Below are positions 3,131 to 11,400 of a DNA stretch of 11,400 nt, in pieces. The stretch is taken from the NCBI GenBank assembly GCA_025928415.1, contig JAICJK010000037.1, forward strand, positions 1-11,400, given 5' to 3'. The stretch is from Solirubrobacteraceae bacterium (GTDB lineage: Bacteria; Actinomycetota; Thermoleophilia; Solirubrobacterales; Solirubrobacteraceae). The notes under the pieces were generated by a model, which saw only the letters and a list, made by a program, of their open reading frames with translations, was not told the origin of the DNA and searched no databases. The position numbers and the translations under genes are program-made. Each line of letters opens with the position of its first letter. Position 1 is the first letter of the stretch.

Positions 3131-4324
3131 CTACCGCGGTCCTAGCTCCGCCAGGCGCCGCTCGAGCAGGCGCCGCTCGGCGTCGTCGTGCGCCAGCGCC
3201 AGGGCGCGGCCGAGGGCCTCGCGGGCCTCGGCGGCGCGGCCGAGCCGGCGCAGCAGCTCCCCCCGCGCCGCGTGCAGGTAGTGGTAGTCCTCGAGCGCCA
3301 GGCGGTCGACGAGCGCCAGCCCCGCCGCGGGCCCGTCGGCCTCGGCGACCGCGACCGCCCGGCTCAGCTCGACGACGGGCGAGTCGGTGAGCCGCGCGAG
3401 CTCGCCGTAGAGGGCGGCGATCTGGGGCCAGTCGCGCGGCTCGCCGGCATGCAGGGCGGCGATCGCCGCCTGCACGACGTAGGCCCCGCGCCCGCGCAGC
3501 GCCAGCGCCCGGTCGAGCACCCCGCGCCCCTCGGCGATCTGCGCCGCGTCCCACAGCCCGCGGTCCTGGTCGGCGAGCAGGACCAGCTCGCCGTCGCGGA
3601 AGCGCGCGGCGCGGCGGGCGTCGTGGAGGAGCATCATCGCCAGCAGCCCGTGGACCTCCGGCTCGTCGGGCATCAGCTCGGCGAGCGCGCGCCCGAGCCG
3701 CAGCGCCTCGGCCGTCAGCTCCCGTCCGGGCGGGACGGGGGCCGGGCTCGAGTAGCCGGCGTTGAAGATCAGGTAGACGACGGCGAGCACGGCGGCCAGC
3801 CGGTCGGGCAGCAGGTGGTCCGGCGGGACGCGGAAGGGGATCCCCGCCGCGCGGATCTTGCGCTTGGCGCGGACGAGCCGCTGCGCCATCGTCGCCTCGC
3901 CGACCAGGAACGCGCGGGCGATCTCGCCGGTGGTCAGGCCGCCGAGCGTGCGCAGCGTGAGCGCGACCTGCGCATCGGTGGCGAGCGCCGGGTGACAGCA
4001 GGTGAAGACGAGCTCCAGCCGCTCGTCCGGGAAGCTCGTGGTCTCCATCGTGTCCTCCGCCGCCTCGGGCACCTCCAGCAGGCGCGTCTTGGCGGCCAGC
4101 GTGCGATCGCGGCGGATGCGGTCGATGGCCCGGTTGCGCGCGGTCGTCACCAGCCAGCCGTCCGGGTTGGCCGGGGCCCCGTCGCGCGGCCAGCGCTCCG
4201 CGGCGATCGCGAAGGCCTCCTGGGCGGCCTCCTCGGCGAGATCGAAGTCGCCGAGGAAGCCGACCAGCGCGGCGAGGACGTAGCCCCACCGGTCGCGGAA
4301 GACCCGCTCGAGGATCGCTACCAC
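3131..4324 (-). CDS. ECF42-type RNA polymerase sigma factor with C-terminal extension
   Basis: This 397-residue extracytoplasmic-function sigma factor carries sigma region 2 at about 13-77 ([21 protein letters not shown], then [16 protein letters not shown]) and region 4 at about 108-160 (CCHPAL, then [28 protein letters not shown]). A long C-terminal extension follows from about 165 to 397 ([42 protein letters not shown], and helical TPR-like repeats to the end). That extension and the DGPF partner define the ECF42 group, in which, as I recall, no anti-sigma factor is used and the extension controls activity. The GTG start at 4324 overlaps the last 7 nt of the DGPF gene, implying translational coupling. 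It probably reads the TGTCGA promoter at 4710-4736 and hence its own operon. Family confidence is high; the inducing signal is unknown. Confidence 0.92.
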
Positions 4325-4677
4325 TCCACGATGGGGCGCACCTCGATCGCGCCGCCCATGCGGGCGGCGGGGATCCGCGCGGCCAGCGCGATCGCGGCGT
4401 CGAGGTCGTCGGCCTCGTAGAACAGGTACCCGCCCAGCGCCTCCTTGAGCTCGGCGAACGGGCCGTCCGTCGTGAGCGTCCTGCCGTCCTGCACGCGGAC
4501 CGTGGTCGCCGTCTCCGGCTCGCCCATCTGCAGGCCCGAGGTGACCCCCGGCGTCTCGTTGATCGCCTGGTAGTCGGCGAAGACCGCCTTCTGCTCGTCC
4601 TCCGGCACGCGCGCCCAGGCGTCCGGGTCGCGCGGCGTCGGGGTCGAGCCCTGATGGATCAGCAGCATGTACTTCAT
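4318..4677 (-). CDS. DGPF-motif YCII-related protein, partner of the ECF42 sigma factor
   Basis: This 119-residue protein has the YCII-like dimeric ferredoxin-type fold. It starts MKYMLLIHQ, carries the diagnostic DGPF motif at residues 71-74 ([16 protein letters not shown]) and ends with the typical [18 protein letters not shown] segment. The ATG at 4677 has GAGGAGG 5 nt upstream; longer upstream extensions of the frame are Arg/Pro-rich and not family-like. Proteins of this group are almost always encoded beside ECF42 sigma factors. Their biochemical role is not established; catalysis or sensing has been proposed by analogy with YciI and muconolactone-isomerase-like folds. The gene is the first of its transcript, 32 nt downstream of a candidate ECF42 promoter, and its stop overlaps the sigma start. 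Confidence 0.93.
4651..4670 (-). repeat. Copy A of a 20-bp repeat at the DGPF gene start
   Basis: The plus-strand sequence at 4651-4670 differs at one of 20 positions from 11073-11092. Here it encodes MLLIHQ at the N-terminus of the intact DGPF protein. The similarity is not confined to the 20-mer: both copies share CACGAGGAG in the ribosome-binding region and a TGTCGA promoter further upstream. This suggests copies of a single gene-start segment. Confidence 0.75.
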
Positions 4678-4709: not shown

Positions 4710-4736
4710 GACGAACGGGAGGCGGCGAGATCGACA
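4710..4736 (-). promoter_or_regulatory. Candidate ECF42 autoregulatory promoter
   Basis: On the minus strand TGTCGA (4736-4731) is separated by 17 bp from CGTC (4713-4710), 32 nt upstream of the DGPF start codon. I recall the ECF42 promoter motif as TGTCGA at -35 and CGA/TC at -10, so both boxes fit exactly. The -35 box begins four bases past the stop codon of the VOC gene, in the only gap between the two genes. This predicts that the sigma factor drives its own dgpf-sigma operon. The same arrangement with the same spacing is found at 11139-11165. Confidence 0.72.
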
Positions 4737-6479: not shown

Positions 6480-6514
6480 CGGCGCCAAGTGCCGCAAGGC
6501 GGCGTCAGGGGCCG
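6475..6514. repeat. Tandem 20-bp imperfect duplication at the 3' end of the lipase gene
   Basis: Positions 6475-6494 and 6495-6514 match at 17 of 20 bases, and both begin CAAGGCGGCG. The second unit includes the stop codon and last codons of the lipase gene; the first lies outside it and contributes one arm of the 6461-6479 hairpin. It looks like a small slippage duplication. Confidence 0.55.
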
Positions 6515-8676
6515 TTCCAGCCCGCCATGTAGCACGGGTGGCCGTCGCAGACGGCCGGCAGGAACCCGTCCGGCTGCAGCCACTGGCCGATCGCGGCCTC
6601 GCCCTCGGGCGACTGGGCCCAGTCGGGGCCGTGCGGGTCGACGCCGAGGGTGTTGGGGTTGTTGTCGAGCGGCGGTGGGGGCGTGCCCGCCAGCGGGCCC
6701 TCGCACGCCGTGACGCCGTCGTTCGGGCACGGGCGCAGCGGCCCGAGATCCCCGACCACCATCGCCGCCCGGCCGGTGAACGGGAACGCGGCGATCCGCG
6801 GGATGCCCCAGTAGGGCACGGGGCCGGGATAGCGGCCGGGGTCGACCACCGGCTCGCGCAGCCGCGCGCCGATCGTGCGCGCCTCGATCTCGCTGGCCCA
6901 GTTGGTGACCTGATGGTCGCCGAGCGCGACCGTCATGAGGACCGAGTGCACCGGCGTGCCCGGCAGCGGGTCGCGCGTCAAGTGCTGCGCGTAGCCGTCC
7001 GTCTCGCCGTGGTCCCAGAGGTCCTGGATGAACGAGAACAGCAGCATGCGCTCCAGCGGGTCCGGATAGGCGCGGTAGAGGATCTGCGCGAACTCGGGGA
7101 AGTCGCTGCTCCTGGTCAGCAGCAGCGCGTAGTCCATGCCCGCGACGTTCAGGGCCGCCCGGGTGAAGTCGGGCTCGATCGCGGTCAGCGCGCCGCCGAA
7201 GATCGCGCCCTGGCTGCCACCGTCATAGAAGAGCTGCGAGGTGTCGATCACGCACTTCCCGCCGACCCGGAAGACGGCGCTCGAGCAGAACCCGCCCGGG
7301 TTGATCAGGTCACGGCCGAGGTAGACGAAGTCGATCAGGCCCTGCTGGAGCCGATCCGGCAACGACGGGAACGCCGAGAGGTTCGTCAGCGCGCCCGCTG
7401 CGTTCGGGACGTCCTCCTCGGCCATCCCGATCTCGTCGGTCGCGCACGCCATCAGCCCGGAGTCGGCGAGCGCGTAGAGCGAGCCGCTGTTGACCTGGTC
7501 GGCGCTGCCGAACAGGCCGTGCCCGTTGAGCAGCGGCCGGAACGCCTTCCCGCTCTTCGCCCCGATCGGGATGTTGCACTGGAAGTTCGCGCTGATCACG
7601 TTGCCCGGGACCGGGGTCGGCAGCGTCGCATCGGGGCCCGCGTAGGCAAAGCGCGCGCCCGGCGGGCATCCCGGCTCGTCCAGATAGCAGGGGACCGTCA
7701 CGTGGCCCTCGACGTGCGCGTACACGCGGGGATCCAGCGTGCTGCTCGTGGTGCAGCCGGCGGGCGCCGGGCCGGCCGCCACGCTGCAGCTGTCGATCGT
7801 GAAGCTCGGCGCCCTGCCCTGGACGACGCCGTCGCCGGGCGTGGCGTCGCCGAGCTTGGCGAGCGCGTCGTCGCGCAGGAACAGCGCCGTGCCGGTGAGG
7901 CTCTGCCGGCTGGCGACCGTGAAGTCCCAGGCGAGGTACAGGGACCGCCTGGAGACGCCCGCGCGCTGCAGCTGCGGGAAGACATGCCGGAGGTAGTGGA
8001 GCCGGCGCGCCGAGGGCCTCCCGTGCCCGCCGGCGAGATCCGCGAAGGCCGGCTGGGCGCGCAGGACGTTCCCGCCCGCGTCCTTCAGGTCGCGGAGGGC
8101 GACGATGTAGCGGTGCCCTTCGGCGAGGTTCCGCGCCGGGCGGATGATGAGGGCGGTCCGCGCCGGGGGCGGCGGGTCGCCGTTGAGGTCGACCGAGCGG
8201 TCCAGCTCCGCCCAGACGGGCCAGCGTCGCCCCGTCGTCGCGTCGATGACGACGATCGGCGAGTCGCGATCGAGGCTCCGGGCGATGTCCGTGTTGGTCG
8301 GCGGGTCGGTGTTGGCGAACGCCTGCGGGTTGTCCATCCCGGGGACGTGCGTGACGATCGGCGAGCCGGGGCTGAAGCCGTCCAGCCGGTTCCAGTCCGT
8401 CGGGTCGATCGGCGCGCCGGCCGCATTGCGCGGCGTCGCGGACGGGTCGACGTCGAGGCGAAGCCCCGTCGCGGTCGACGGGTCGGCCCGCGTGAAGAAG
8501 TCGTCCGGCCACGGCAGCAGGCAGAGCGAGGGATCGATCGGATCGCACGGCTGATGGACGGGCGCCGCGCCCGAGCGCGGCGCGTGATGCTCGCCGCCCG
8601 GCCTCGCCTCAGCCGGCACGGCCGCCGCCAACCAGGTGCACGCGACGATCACGAAGCATCCGACCCACTTGCGCAT
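6505..8676 (-). CDS. Secreted lipase/esterase-like alpha/beta hydrolase, paralogue 2
   Basis: This 723-residue exported protein starts at an ATG with GAGGAGG 4 nt upstream. Residues 1-24 form a signal peptide (cleavage near AEA-RP); IVAC at 10-13 resembles a lipobox, but the hydrophobic stretch continues past it, so lipidation is doubtful. The N-terminal region has PWPDDFF (55-61), RLDGFSPGSPIV (97-108) and EGHRYIVALRDLKDAGGN (186-203), like the N-terminal domain of VolA/Pla-1-type lipases. The hydrolase part has HGLFG (386-390), GGSQG with Ser488, GDHQV with Asp587 and DPHG with His682, followed by SPEGEAAIGQWL, the usual helix after a catalytic His. The order and conservation with the gene at 1-2088 support a Ser-Asp-His triad. 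Numerous conserved Cys residues suggest disulfides. It has its own promoter and terminator-like hairpin. Esterase or lipase activity is inferred; the substrate is unknown. Confidence 0.85.
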   Translation of the reverse strand: MRKWVGCFVIVACTWLAAAVPAEARPGGEHHAPRSGAAPVHQPCDPIDPSLCLLPWPDDFFTRADPSTATGLRLDVDPSATPRNAAGAPIDPTDWNRLDGFSPGSPIVTHVPGMDNPQAFANTDPPTNTDIARSLDRDSPIVVIDATTGRRWPVWAELDRSVDLNGDPPPPARTALIIRPARNLAEGHRYIVALRDLKDAGGNVLRAQPAFADLAGGHGRPSARRLHYLRHVFPQLQRAGVSRRSLYLAWDFTVASRQSLTGTALFLRDDALAKLGDATPGDGVVQGRAPSFTIDSCSVAAGPAPAGCTTSSTLDPRVYAHVEGHVTVPCYLDEPGCPPGARFAYAGPDATLPTPVPGNVISANFQCNIPIGAKSGKAFRPLLNGHGLFGSADQVNSGSLYALADSGLMACATDEIGMAEEDVPNAAGALTNLSAFPSLPDRLQQGLIDFVYLGRDLINPGGFCSSAVFRVGGKCVIDTSQLFYDGGSQGAIFGGALTAIEPDFTRAALNVAGMDYALLLTRSSDFPEFAQILYRAYPDPLERMLLFSFIQDLWDHGETDGYAQHLTRDPLPGTPVHSVLMTVALGDHQVTNWASEIEARTIGARLREPVVDPGRYPGPVPYWGIPRIAAFPFTGRAAMVVGDLGPLRPCPNDGVTACEGPLAGTPPPPLDNNPNTLGVDPHGPDWAQSPEGEAAIGQWLQPDGFLPAVCDGHPCYMAGWNGP

Positions 8677-8728: not shown

Positions 8729-8734
<6 letters not shown>
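8706..8734 (-). promoter_or_regulatory. Promoter of the paralogue-2 lipase gene
   Basis: On the minus strand TTGTGA (8734-8729) and TATCGT (8711-8706) are separated by 17 bp. A start near 8699 would leave a leader of about 20 nt holding the GAGGAGG ribosome-binding site. The -35 box overlaps the stop codon of the monooxygenase gene. The sequence around the -10 is identical over 11 bases to that before the methyltransferase. Confidence 0.55.
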
Positions 8735-10231
<1,497 letters not shown>

Positions 10232-10285
10232 AGCCGCACTCCCTCCGCATTCGCCGTCCACACCACGCACGTCACGCGCCCGCTC

Positions 10286-10305
10286 CCGTGCGCTCTGGCG
10301 CACGG
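10286..10305 (-). promoter_or_regulatory. Perfect hairpin in the leader of the monooxygenase gene
   Basis: CCGTGCGC-TCTG-GCGCACGG (plus strand) is an 8-bp perfect inverted repeat with a 4-nt loop. It lies 55-74 nt upstream of the GTG start and just downstream of the candidate -10 at 10317-10312, so it would be close to the 5' end of the mRNA. It could be an operator or an mRNA stem; its length and perfect match make a coincidence less likely than for other GC palindromes here. Confidence 0.5.
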
Positions 10306-10427: not shown

Positions 10428-11057
10428 TCAGTGGTGGCGGTCGAAGTCGGCCGGCCAGGGCAGCGGGAACAGGTGCCGGTGGGGGCGCGCGTCCGCGATC
10501 ACCTTGGCGAACGACGGCCGCTGCGCGAGCGCGCGGTAGTACCGCGTGAGCTGCGGGTGCGCGCCCTCGTCCCACGGGTGAATCGCCAGGGCGTAGAACA
10601 GCCCCGGCGCGGCGGCGCAGTCGGCGATCGTGAACGTGTCGCCGGCGAGGAGCTCGTGCACCGCCAGTTGCGCCTCCAGCATGCCGTAGGCCATGTCGAG
10701 CCGGCCCCGCGCCTGAGCGACCGCGCGCTCGTCGAAGCGCCGCTCGATCGTGTCGAAGACGATCGCCTGGACGGCGTCGGAGACGTACTGGTCGCAGAGC
10801 CGGTCCCACAGGCGGGCCTCCAGCGACGGCACCAGCCGCGCGCCGGCGACGTGCTCGATGATGATGGACGTCTCGCCGATCACCTGGTCGCCGTCGCGCA
10901 GCACCGGGATCGACGCCGGGGGCCACAGCTTCGCCAGCTCGGCGCGGTCGAAGTCGCGCTGCTCCTCGAGGACGTCGTAGGCGACGCCCTGCTCGTTGAG
11001 CGCGACCAGGACCTTCTGGCAGTAGAGCGCGAAGGGATGCTCGTAGAGGGTGAGCAT
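10428..11057 (-). CDS. Glutathione S-transferase family protein
   Basis: This 209-residue soluble protein has an N-terminal thioredoxin-like domain at 1-72: LYEHPFALYCQKVLVAL (4-20) with Cys13 at the position often held by Ser or Cys, the cis-proline loop IPVL (Pro51) and the GSH gamma-glutamyl-binding turn GETS (61-64). The all-helical C-terminal domain follows, with the hydrophobic-core N-capping box FTIAD (142-146). Such proteins conjugate thiols to electrophiles or act as isomerases. Many actinomycetes lack glutathione, so the real thiol may differ. The ATG at 11057 has GAGGG 7 nt upstream, inside a 12-codon frame that ends 3 nt before it, so translation may be coupled. A TGTCGA/CGAC promoter-like element 82 nt upstream suggests control by the ECF42-type sigma factor of this window. 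Confidence 0.9.
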   Translation of the reverse strand: MLTLYEHPFALYCQKVLVALNEQGVAYDVLEEQRDFDRAELAKLWPPASIPVLRDGDQVIGETSIIIEHVAGARLVPSLEARLWDRLCDQYVSDAVQAIVFDTIERRFDERAVAQARGRLDMAYGMLEAQLAVHELLAGDTFTIADCAAAPGLFYALAIHPWDEGAHPQLTRYYRALAQRPSFAKVIADARPHRHLFPLPWPADFDRHH

Positions 11058-11060
11058 CGG

Positions 11061-11099
11061 TCAGCCCTCGTTCTGATGGATCGGCAGCATGTGGCGCAT
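11061..11099 (-). pseudogene. 12-codon YCII/DGPF-like N-terminal remnant or leader peptide upstream of the GST gene
   Basis: An ATG at 11099 with GAGGAG 7 nt upstream opens MRHMLPIHQNEG followed by TGA. The start aligns with MKYMLLIHQ of the DGPF protein at 4318-4677, and starts of the type M-R/K-Y-M-L-L-I-x-Q-N-E are typical of YCII/DGPF proteins. The nucleotides agree at 19 of 20 positions (11073-11092 against 4651-4670). The remaining ~105 residues and the DGPF motif are absent, because the GST gene begins 3 nt after the stop. I read it as the stub of a deleted DGPF gene; it may still act as a translated leader that couples to the GST start. Confidence 0.7.
11073..11092 (-). repeat. Copy B of the 20-bp DGPF gene-start repeat
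   Basis: This segment differs from 4651-4670 by one base in 20 and lies in the same orientation at the same place in its reading frame. Together with the matching ribosome-binding region and promoter boxes it marks a duplicated or formerly homologous gene start about 6.4 kb from copy A. Confidence 0.75.
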
Positions 11100-11138
11100 C
11101 GGGACGCTCCTCGTGATGGGGCTTGCGGTCACCCTACG

Positions 11139-11165
11139 GTCGGAGCTGCCGGCGGGTTCTCGACA
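11139..11165 (-). promoter_or_regulatory. Second candidate ECF42 promoter, upstream of the GST gene
   Basis: On the minus strand TGTCGA (11165-11160) and CGAC (11142-11139) are separated by 17 bp, the same spacing as at 4710-4736, and both boxes fit the TGTCGA / CGA/TC motif I recall for ECF42 sigma factors. The element is in the 81-nt gap between the upstream partial gene and the YCII-like remnant, 39 nt before the remnant's ATG. Further downstream both leaders share GGG-N-GACC and CACGAGGAG, so they look related by descent rather than by chance. Confidence 0.65.
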
Positions 11166-11180: not shown

Positions 11181-11400
11181 TCAGCGGCCGTCAGGCGGCG
11201 CCCCAGGCGCGCGCAGGACCGCCTGGATCAGCCGGGCCCGGCCTTCGGCGAGGTTGCGTAGGAGGTTGGCCGCCTTGGCGGGGAAGTCCTGGACGAACAC
11301 GTGCAGTCCGAGCTGCGGTTGCCCGCCGGCGAAGAACTGCCGCATGCCCTTCTCCGCCGGCTCGGTGAGGTCGTTCCAGTGAGCTTTCGTGAAGCCCGCC
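11181..11400 (-). CDS. Unrecognised protein, C-terminal 72 residues
   Basis: The minus-strand frame ending in TGA at 11183-11181 is open to the window edge and has strongly G/C-ending codons, so it is the real coding frame here. It reads AGFTKAHWNDLTEPAEKGMR, then FFAGGQPQLGLHVFVQDFPA, then KAANLLRNLAEGRARLIQAV, and ends in a short Pro/Gly tail. A charged segment leads to a beta-like LGLHVFVQ strand and two amphipathic helices; there is no membrane segment. The closing helix pattern recalls the C-termini of some oxidoreductases, but I cannot assign a family. It is probably the end of a separate transcription unit, since a promoter-like element follows its stop. Confidence 0.65.
   Translation of the reverse strand, partial: AGFTKAHWNDLTEPAEKGMRQFFAGGQPQLGLHVFVQDFPAKAANLLRNLAEGRARLIQAVLRAPGAPPDGR

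Follow-up and report, generated by a model that had tools for sequence, protein, structure and literature searches.

Background

A DGPF/YCII gene is the usual first gene of the operons that encode ECF42 sigma factors. To our knowledge, little is known about the signals and roles of these sigma factors. Their promoter consensus in Streptomyces venezuelae is reportedly TGTCGA / CG(A/T)C, and we know of no glutathione S-transferase (GST) gene that is a target of the ECF42 sigma factors of that organism.

The S. venezuelae ECF42 proteins Sven_0747, Sven_7131 and Sven_4377 consist of an ECF core followed by a C-terminal extension of about 200 residues, and activation by protein contact via this extension has been proposed for the group (PMC8999054). 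ECF-10 of Pseudomonas putida, which also belongs to ECF42, has been tied to oxidative stress and antibiotics (PMC8999054). In Sinorhizobium meliloti a YCII gene precedes the gene of the ECF42 sigma factor RpoE10, overexpression of RpoE10 raised distal operons including glyoxalase-like genes, and the SMc01149 and SMb20475 promoters carry TGTCGG-N17-CGTC (PMC6180224). For S. meliloti, an ECF42 sigma factor with glyoxalase-type genes among its distal targets is already published; the accessible sections of that article include no GST among the genes named for RpoE10 (PMC6180224).

Results and discussion

Two ECF42-type sites in one window

The window analyzed here is the whole of contig C271 (11,400 bp) of a Solirubrobacteraceae assembly of 3.25 Mb in 669 contigs (GCA_025928415.1). 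The features on which the analysis centers are the following:

3131..4324, minus strand: ECF42-type sigma factor gene (Sigma70_r2, Sigma70_r4_2, DUF6596 C-terminal extension)
4318..4677, minus strand: DGPF/YCII protein gene (PF03795), directly upstream of the sigma gene
4710..4736, minus strand: predicted ECF42-type promoter, subtype B, of the DGPF-sigma operon; TGTCGATCTCGCCGCCTCCCGTTCGTC, 17-base spacer
10428..11057, minus strand: gene of a glutathione S-transferase-fold protein, 209 aa (Pfam GST_N_3 and GST_C_2; PF13417, PF13410 and others above cut-off)
11061..11099, minus strand: 12-codon ORF MRHMLPIHQNEG followed by TGA, similar in alignment to the beginning of a DGPF/YCII gene
11107..11112, minus strand: Shine-Dalgarno-like GAGGAG before the 12-codon ORF, within a block common to the window DGPF gene
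11139..11165, minus strand: predicted ECF42-type promoter, subtype A, before the GST gene; -35 TGTCGA, N17, -10 CGAC; letters from 11165 to 11139 TGTCGAGAACCCGCCGGCAGCTCCGAC; extended match TGTCGAGAAC-N9-GCTCCGAC

Sigma regions 2 and 4 were recognized above cut-off in the product of 3131-4324 (PF04542 and PF08281). About 235 residues lie beyond region 4, and in this extension Pfam gives DUF6596 and no TPR family (E 0.001). With an ECF core and a long C-terminal extension the protein resembles the ECF42 sigma factors of S. venezuelae, as far as these are described in the accessible part of PMC8999054. The GST-fold protein matched solved GSTs with a best E of 7e-13.

A pattern search found TGTCGA-N17-CGWC twice in the window, both times on the minus strand and 6.4 kb apart on the one contig. 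The places before the GST gene and the DGPF-sigma operon, the common strand and the identical 17-base spacers are all as claimed in the first-pass annotation of this DNA. The chance estimate that accompanied them was about 0.04 matches for the window; dinucleotide shuffles of the window gave a mean of 0.13, roughly three times higher, and at least two matches occurred in 1 of 200 shuffles. A VOC gene lies just before the operon motif, which begins 3 bases past its stop codon; from the end of the motif to the DGPF ATG there are 32 nt. The GST motif is separated from the GST ATG by 81 nt, and the 12-codon ORF sits inside that gap.

Positions 11139-11165 agree with the ECF42-type consensus TGTCGA-N17-CG(A/T)C. 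Compared with the S. meliloti promoters given in the accessible part of PMC6180224, the GST site has the same spacing and five of the six -35 bases, with CGAC where those have CGTC. The -10 CGTC of S. meliloti is like that of the window's sigma operon and unlike the CTCCGAC of the GST site (PMC6180224).

The motif in the assembly and in 146 genomes

TGTCGA-N17-CGWC occurs at 4 places in the 3.25 Mb assembly and its reversed control at 3, so the bare count proves nothing and shows no enrichment. The placement is more telling: 3 of the 4 matches directly precede ECF42-type genes or the GST gene, namely the GST itself, the window DGPF-sigma operon and a second DGPF-sigma operon on contig C410. 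The fourth match, on contig C135, scores below 0 on both motif matrices. DUF6596 extensions occur in four proteins of this genome, encoded on C271, C410, C662 and C495.

The GST and C410 sites both have CTCCGAC at -10, and the GST site fits the extended motif TGTCGAGaAC-N9-GCTCCGAC. TGTCGA-N14-CTCCGAC, the pattern of subtype A, was found at 27 places in 16 genomes among the 146 searched (own genome included), against 4 places for the reversed control; the pattern was derived from the two sites of the own genome, those of the GST and C410, and both are counted in the 27. A plausible target gene (DGPF, RibD_C, MFS, VOC or the window GST) lies behind 22 of the 27 places:

DGPF: 8
RibD_C reductases: 8, with a DGPF gene next in four
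RibD_C-like start at L083, 61 aa and then a stop, assigned by eye and counted among the 22
MFS transporters: 3
VOC: 1, directly after a DGPF-sigma operon
Window GST: 1

Pfam was run on five of the RibD_C proteins, one VOC and one MFS protein, and the rest were assigned by similarity to those or to the window DGPF protein. At L077, L082, L085, L086 and L088 (5/27) a gene start was looked for behind the subtype-A site and none was recognized; the spacer of the L088 site (G086:C56:2592-2618) scores well. These neighbors agree with the proposal that the GST belongs with a detoxification function, as it stands in the company of detoxification-type genes that have the same promoter.

At the free positions, those not fixed by the search pattern, the consensus of 20 sites is TGTCGAGaACgcgcgg.CGGCTCCGAC. 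When left out of the subtype-A matrix (matrix A), the GST site scored 36.7 bits on it in total, with the runner-up in the window at -0.8 bits. The free positions alone contributed 11.4 bits, a score reached by 2 of 100,000 random spacers. The stricter pattern YGTCGAGNNC-N9-SCTCCGAC was found at 30 places in the 146 family members (own genome included) and its reversed control at 0; TGTCGA opens 20 of the 30 and CGTCGA the other 10, and among the latter an identity was assigned to the S. pratensis GST (see below) only. Positions 11139-11165 share this extended motif with DGPF-ECF42 operons.

Two arrangements were observed among the subtype-A loci. RibD_C and DGPF genes lie in tandem behind a single subtype-A promoter at L076, L081, L087, L093 and L071 of S. 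pratensis; the sigma gene follows them in L071, its start is visible in L076 and L087, and none is present in the fetched DNA of L081 and L093. At L164 (G423:C449), two divergent TGTCGA..CTCCGAC sites at about 1500-1605 lie between a DGPF-ECF42 operon and the gene of a DUF6069 membrane protein (PF19545).

Conservation upstream of the GST gene

The GST is 93% identical in Candidatus Solirubrobacter pratensis and 94% identical, over residues 22-209, in the Solirubrobacterales MAG RYN_265, whose copy is truncated before its start. Both organisms and the source of the window fall within one family. Two close GST loci with upstream DNA are known, those of the window and of S. pratensis. The 344 nt upstream of the window GST were searched for blocks against the 8.6 kb S. 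pratensis GST locus, and a single block with E < 0.01 was obtained, 35 nt long and 88.6% identical (E 8.8e-8), at window positions 11172-11138, over the motif. The -35 of the S. pratensis copy is CGTCGA, not TGTCGA. In that genome YGTCGA-N17-CGWC has 292 places against 60 for the control, with about 11 TGTCGA among the matches listed (the first hundred or so of the 292), so the short pattern alone is noisy there. Seven distant GST homologues (45-52% identical; the count leaves out L007, L021, L023, L024, L032 and L033) had no 17-spaced site within 1.5 kb upstream. Together, the extended motif, the matrix score and this conservation give 11139-11165 the sequence features of an ECF42-type promoter.

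The surroundings of the GST gene were also noted. In S. pratensis, the GST gene has a gene for a RibD_C protein (PF01872; L027:2555-3112) some 0.9 kb upstream, in the same orientation. In the window, the GST is followed downstream, also in its orientation, by a gene (8729-10303, minus) for a PRK06834-subfamily FAD monooxygenase that shows a weaker resemblance to rifampin monooxygenases; this gene was not found in the fetched GST loci of S. pratensis and RYN_265. Two window proteins of 708 aa (1-2124, minus, running off the contig) and 723 aa (6505-8676, minus) are alike by eye and had no Pfam match at E 0.001.

Promoter subtype follows sigma clade

On matrix A, that of the C410-type clade, the GST site reaches 36.7 bits; on matrix B, that of the window sigma's clade, it scores -6.3 bits. 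It does not share a subtype with the window sigma operon. The promoter of this operon is of the subtype TGTCGATTTc..CCGTTCGTC, typical of its clade. Of 29 window-sigma orthologues (L131-L159, 70-86% identical), 16 have a site TGTCGAT...GTTCGTC before the DGPF gene and one more has a TGTCGT variant, the remainder having no exact site or too little DNA. In a subclade of the same sigma clade (L151-L154, L156 and L157), sites of the TGTCCCCT.. type, not TGTCGATT, precede DGPF in several members and are perhaps a third promoter subtype.

A first tree of 73 sigma rows (6 labelled A, 24 B, 5 other and 38 without an exact site; L089 and duplicates not included) placed the A rows in one group with support 100/100, separate from the window sigma, with a bootstrap that was not fully settled. 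In a second tree, to which L089 and L164 were added, all 8 placed sigma proteins beside subtype-A sites fell into one 11-row clade (100/100), here called clade A, whose remaining rows are L018, L068 and L071; L087 is the S. pratensis locus of L071. The tree rows exclude L075, L076, L078, L081, L087 and L093, where the sigma gene is truncated or not visible in the fetched DNA.

Since most A rows had been found via the motif, 67 sigma operons obtained without it were rescored. These had been fetched by Pfam family or sigma similarity, and contig ends shorten some of the regions. Only three of them are clade-A rows. Before DGPF, L068 reaches 30.9 bits and L018 22.7 bits on matrix A; L071 has no site directly before DGPF but carries an exact match to subtype A in front of the RibD_C gene that heads the operon. 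None of the 64 other operons exceeded 3.1 bits on matrix A. Comparison of the two sigma clades over their first 165 residues gave 32 differing positions (75% level, 8 versus 24 rows), several of them in stretches taken to read the -10 and -35 elements.

L018, one of the three rows found independently of the motif, is the C495 sigma, a divergent protein that joins clade A on a long branch and has a subtype-A-like site with -10 CGCT, not CGAC. L004, the C410 sigma, is cut by the contig end. With L018 and L004 in clade A, the genome has candidates of this clade. The subtype of the GST promoter belongs with an ECF42 clade different from that of the window sigma, and the GST is most likely a target of the C410/C495 members. 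The first-pass annotation had placed the GST in the regulon of the window's own sigma factor; as worded this did not hold, because the sites found for that clade are of the other subtype (-6.3 versus 36.7 bits).

A DGPF-like leader between promoter and GST

The 12-codon ORF stops 3 nt short of the GST ATG, in the same frame, and GST translation therefore probably proceeds by coupling or re-initiation. The DNA from CACGAGGAG to CATCAG aligns to the 5' end of the window DGPF gene with a score of 44, reached by 0 of 2000 shuffles (best 37), and blastn of the leader against the same 5' end gave 81% identity over 43 nt (E 1.3e-5). The C410 DGPF gene too resembles the leader around the start codon. 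On the basis of these alignments, the promoter, the 5' leader and the first 12 codons appear to derive from a DGPF/YCII gene. In S. pratensis 42 leader bases are absent and the GST ATG lies 38 nt past the motif; in the window the leader ATG lies 39 nt past it. The short repeat CCGATGC at both ends of the 42-base stretch would allow either a loss in S. pratensis or a gain in the window.

Interpretation and alternatives

The motif, its subtype, its conservation in one other species, the leader similarity and the association of subtype with sigma clade lead us to favor, with a probability of roughly 0.7, a GST gene under a subtype-A promoter that looks derived, together with the stub behind it, from a DGPF gene and is most likely read by a clade-A ECF42 sigma factor, not chiefly by the window sigma. 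The C410 sigma, and perhaps the divergent C495 sigma, would recognize the GST promoter, and once the clade-A sigma is activated RNA polymerase would start directly upstream of the DGPF-like leader. Ribosomes would then load at GAGGAG and translate the 12-codon ORF to its stop, after which they would re-initiate on the GST. Clade-A sigma factors appear to turn on small, lineage-variable sets of detoxification-type genes, comprising DGPF, RibD_C reductase, MFS pump, VOC and, here, GST.

It is unlikely that the window's own sigma factor controls the GST as a distal target, although the two sites share the -35 box, spacing and strand 6.4 kb apart on one contig, and ECF42 sigma factors of one genome may cross-recognize promoters. 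The matrix of that sigma's own promoter class gave -6.3 bits against 36.7 on the other class, and promoter class tracks sigma clades that differ at 32/165 first residues (75% level); on the matrix scores, the trees and the operon rescoring, control by the window sigma was rejected as first choice. Somewhat less likely again is a fossil site, in which an ECF42 promoter and DGPF start outlived their DGPF gene and play no present part in GST expression, the GST being transcribed from another promoter or by read-through. A 12-codon stub with a stop is what gene decay leaves, and a same-strand frame upstream of the GST motif, which had no Pfam match, ends at 11181, so that read-through is possible. 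Against this stands the S. pratensis locus, where the promoter block is the sole conserved upstream stretch and the GST ATG replaces the stub.

That a 10-base pattern simply arose by chance in a GC-rich genome is very improbable. The genome count of 4 versus 3 for the reversed pattern would fit such an origin, but the extended match of 36.7 bits against -0.8 for the next window place, the counts of 27 versus 4 and 30 versus 0 against reversed controls (146 genomes each) and the conservation of the motif in a second species, S. pratensis, do not; together with the shuffles, they led us to reject a chance match.

Beyond the clade-A reading of the GST promoter, a wider one is offered tentatively for the family, here Solirubrobacteraceae as judged from S. 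pratensis. Several ECF42 circuits might operate in one cell, held separate by promoter subtypes that match sigma clades, and their regulons might grow by capture of a DGPF cassette (promoter, ribosome-binding site and DGPF start) joined to cargo such as the GST, with the stub serving as translational starter.

Conclusions

In the open-licence literature, outside which most subscription papers lie, no GST under an ECF42 promoter was recognized among the matches listed, nor were the pump/reductase regulon set, subtypes tied to sigma clades or the DGPF stub.

The reductases, pumps and glyoxalases that are grouped with the GST suggest a defence against toxic organics. Taken as one comparative regulon, the RibD_C reductases, MFS pumps, glyoxalase and GST point to a response to such compounds. 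Which sigma paralogue controls which genes is predicted by the two promoter subtypes. A GST promoter that is probably read by a sister of the window sigma hints that one cell may run chemical-defence circuits in parallel.
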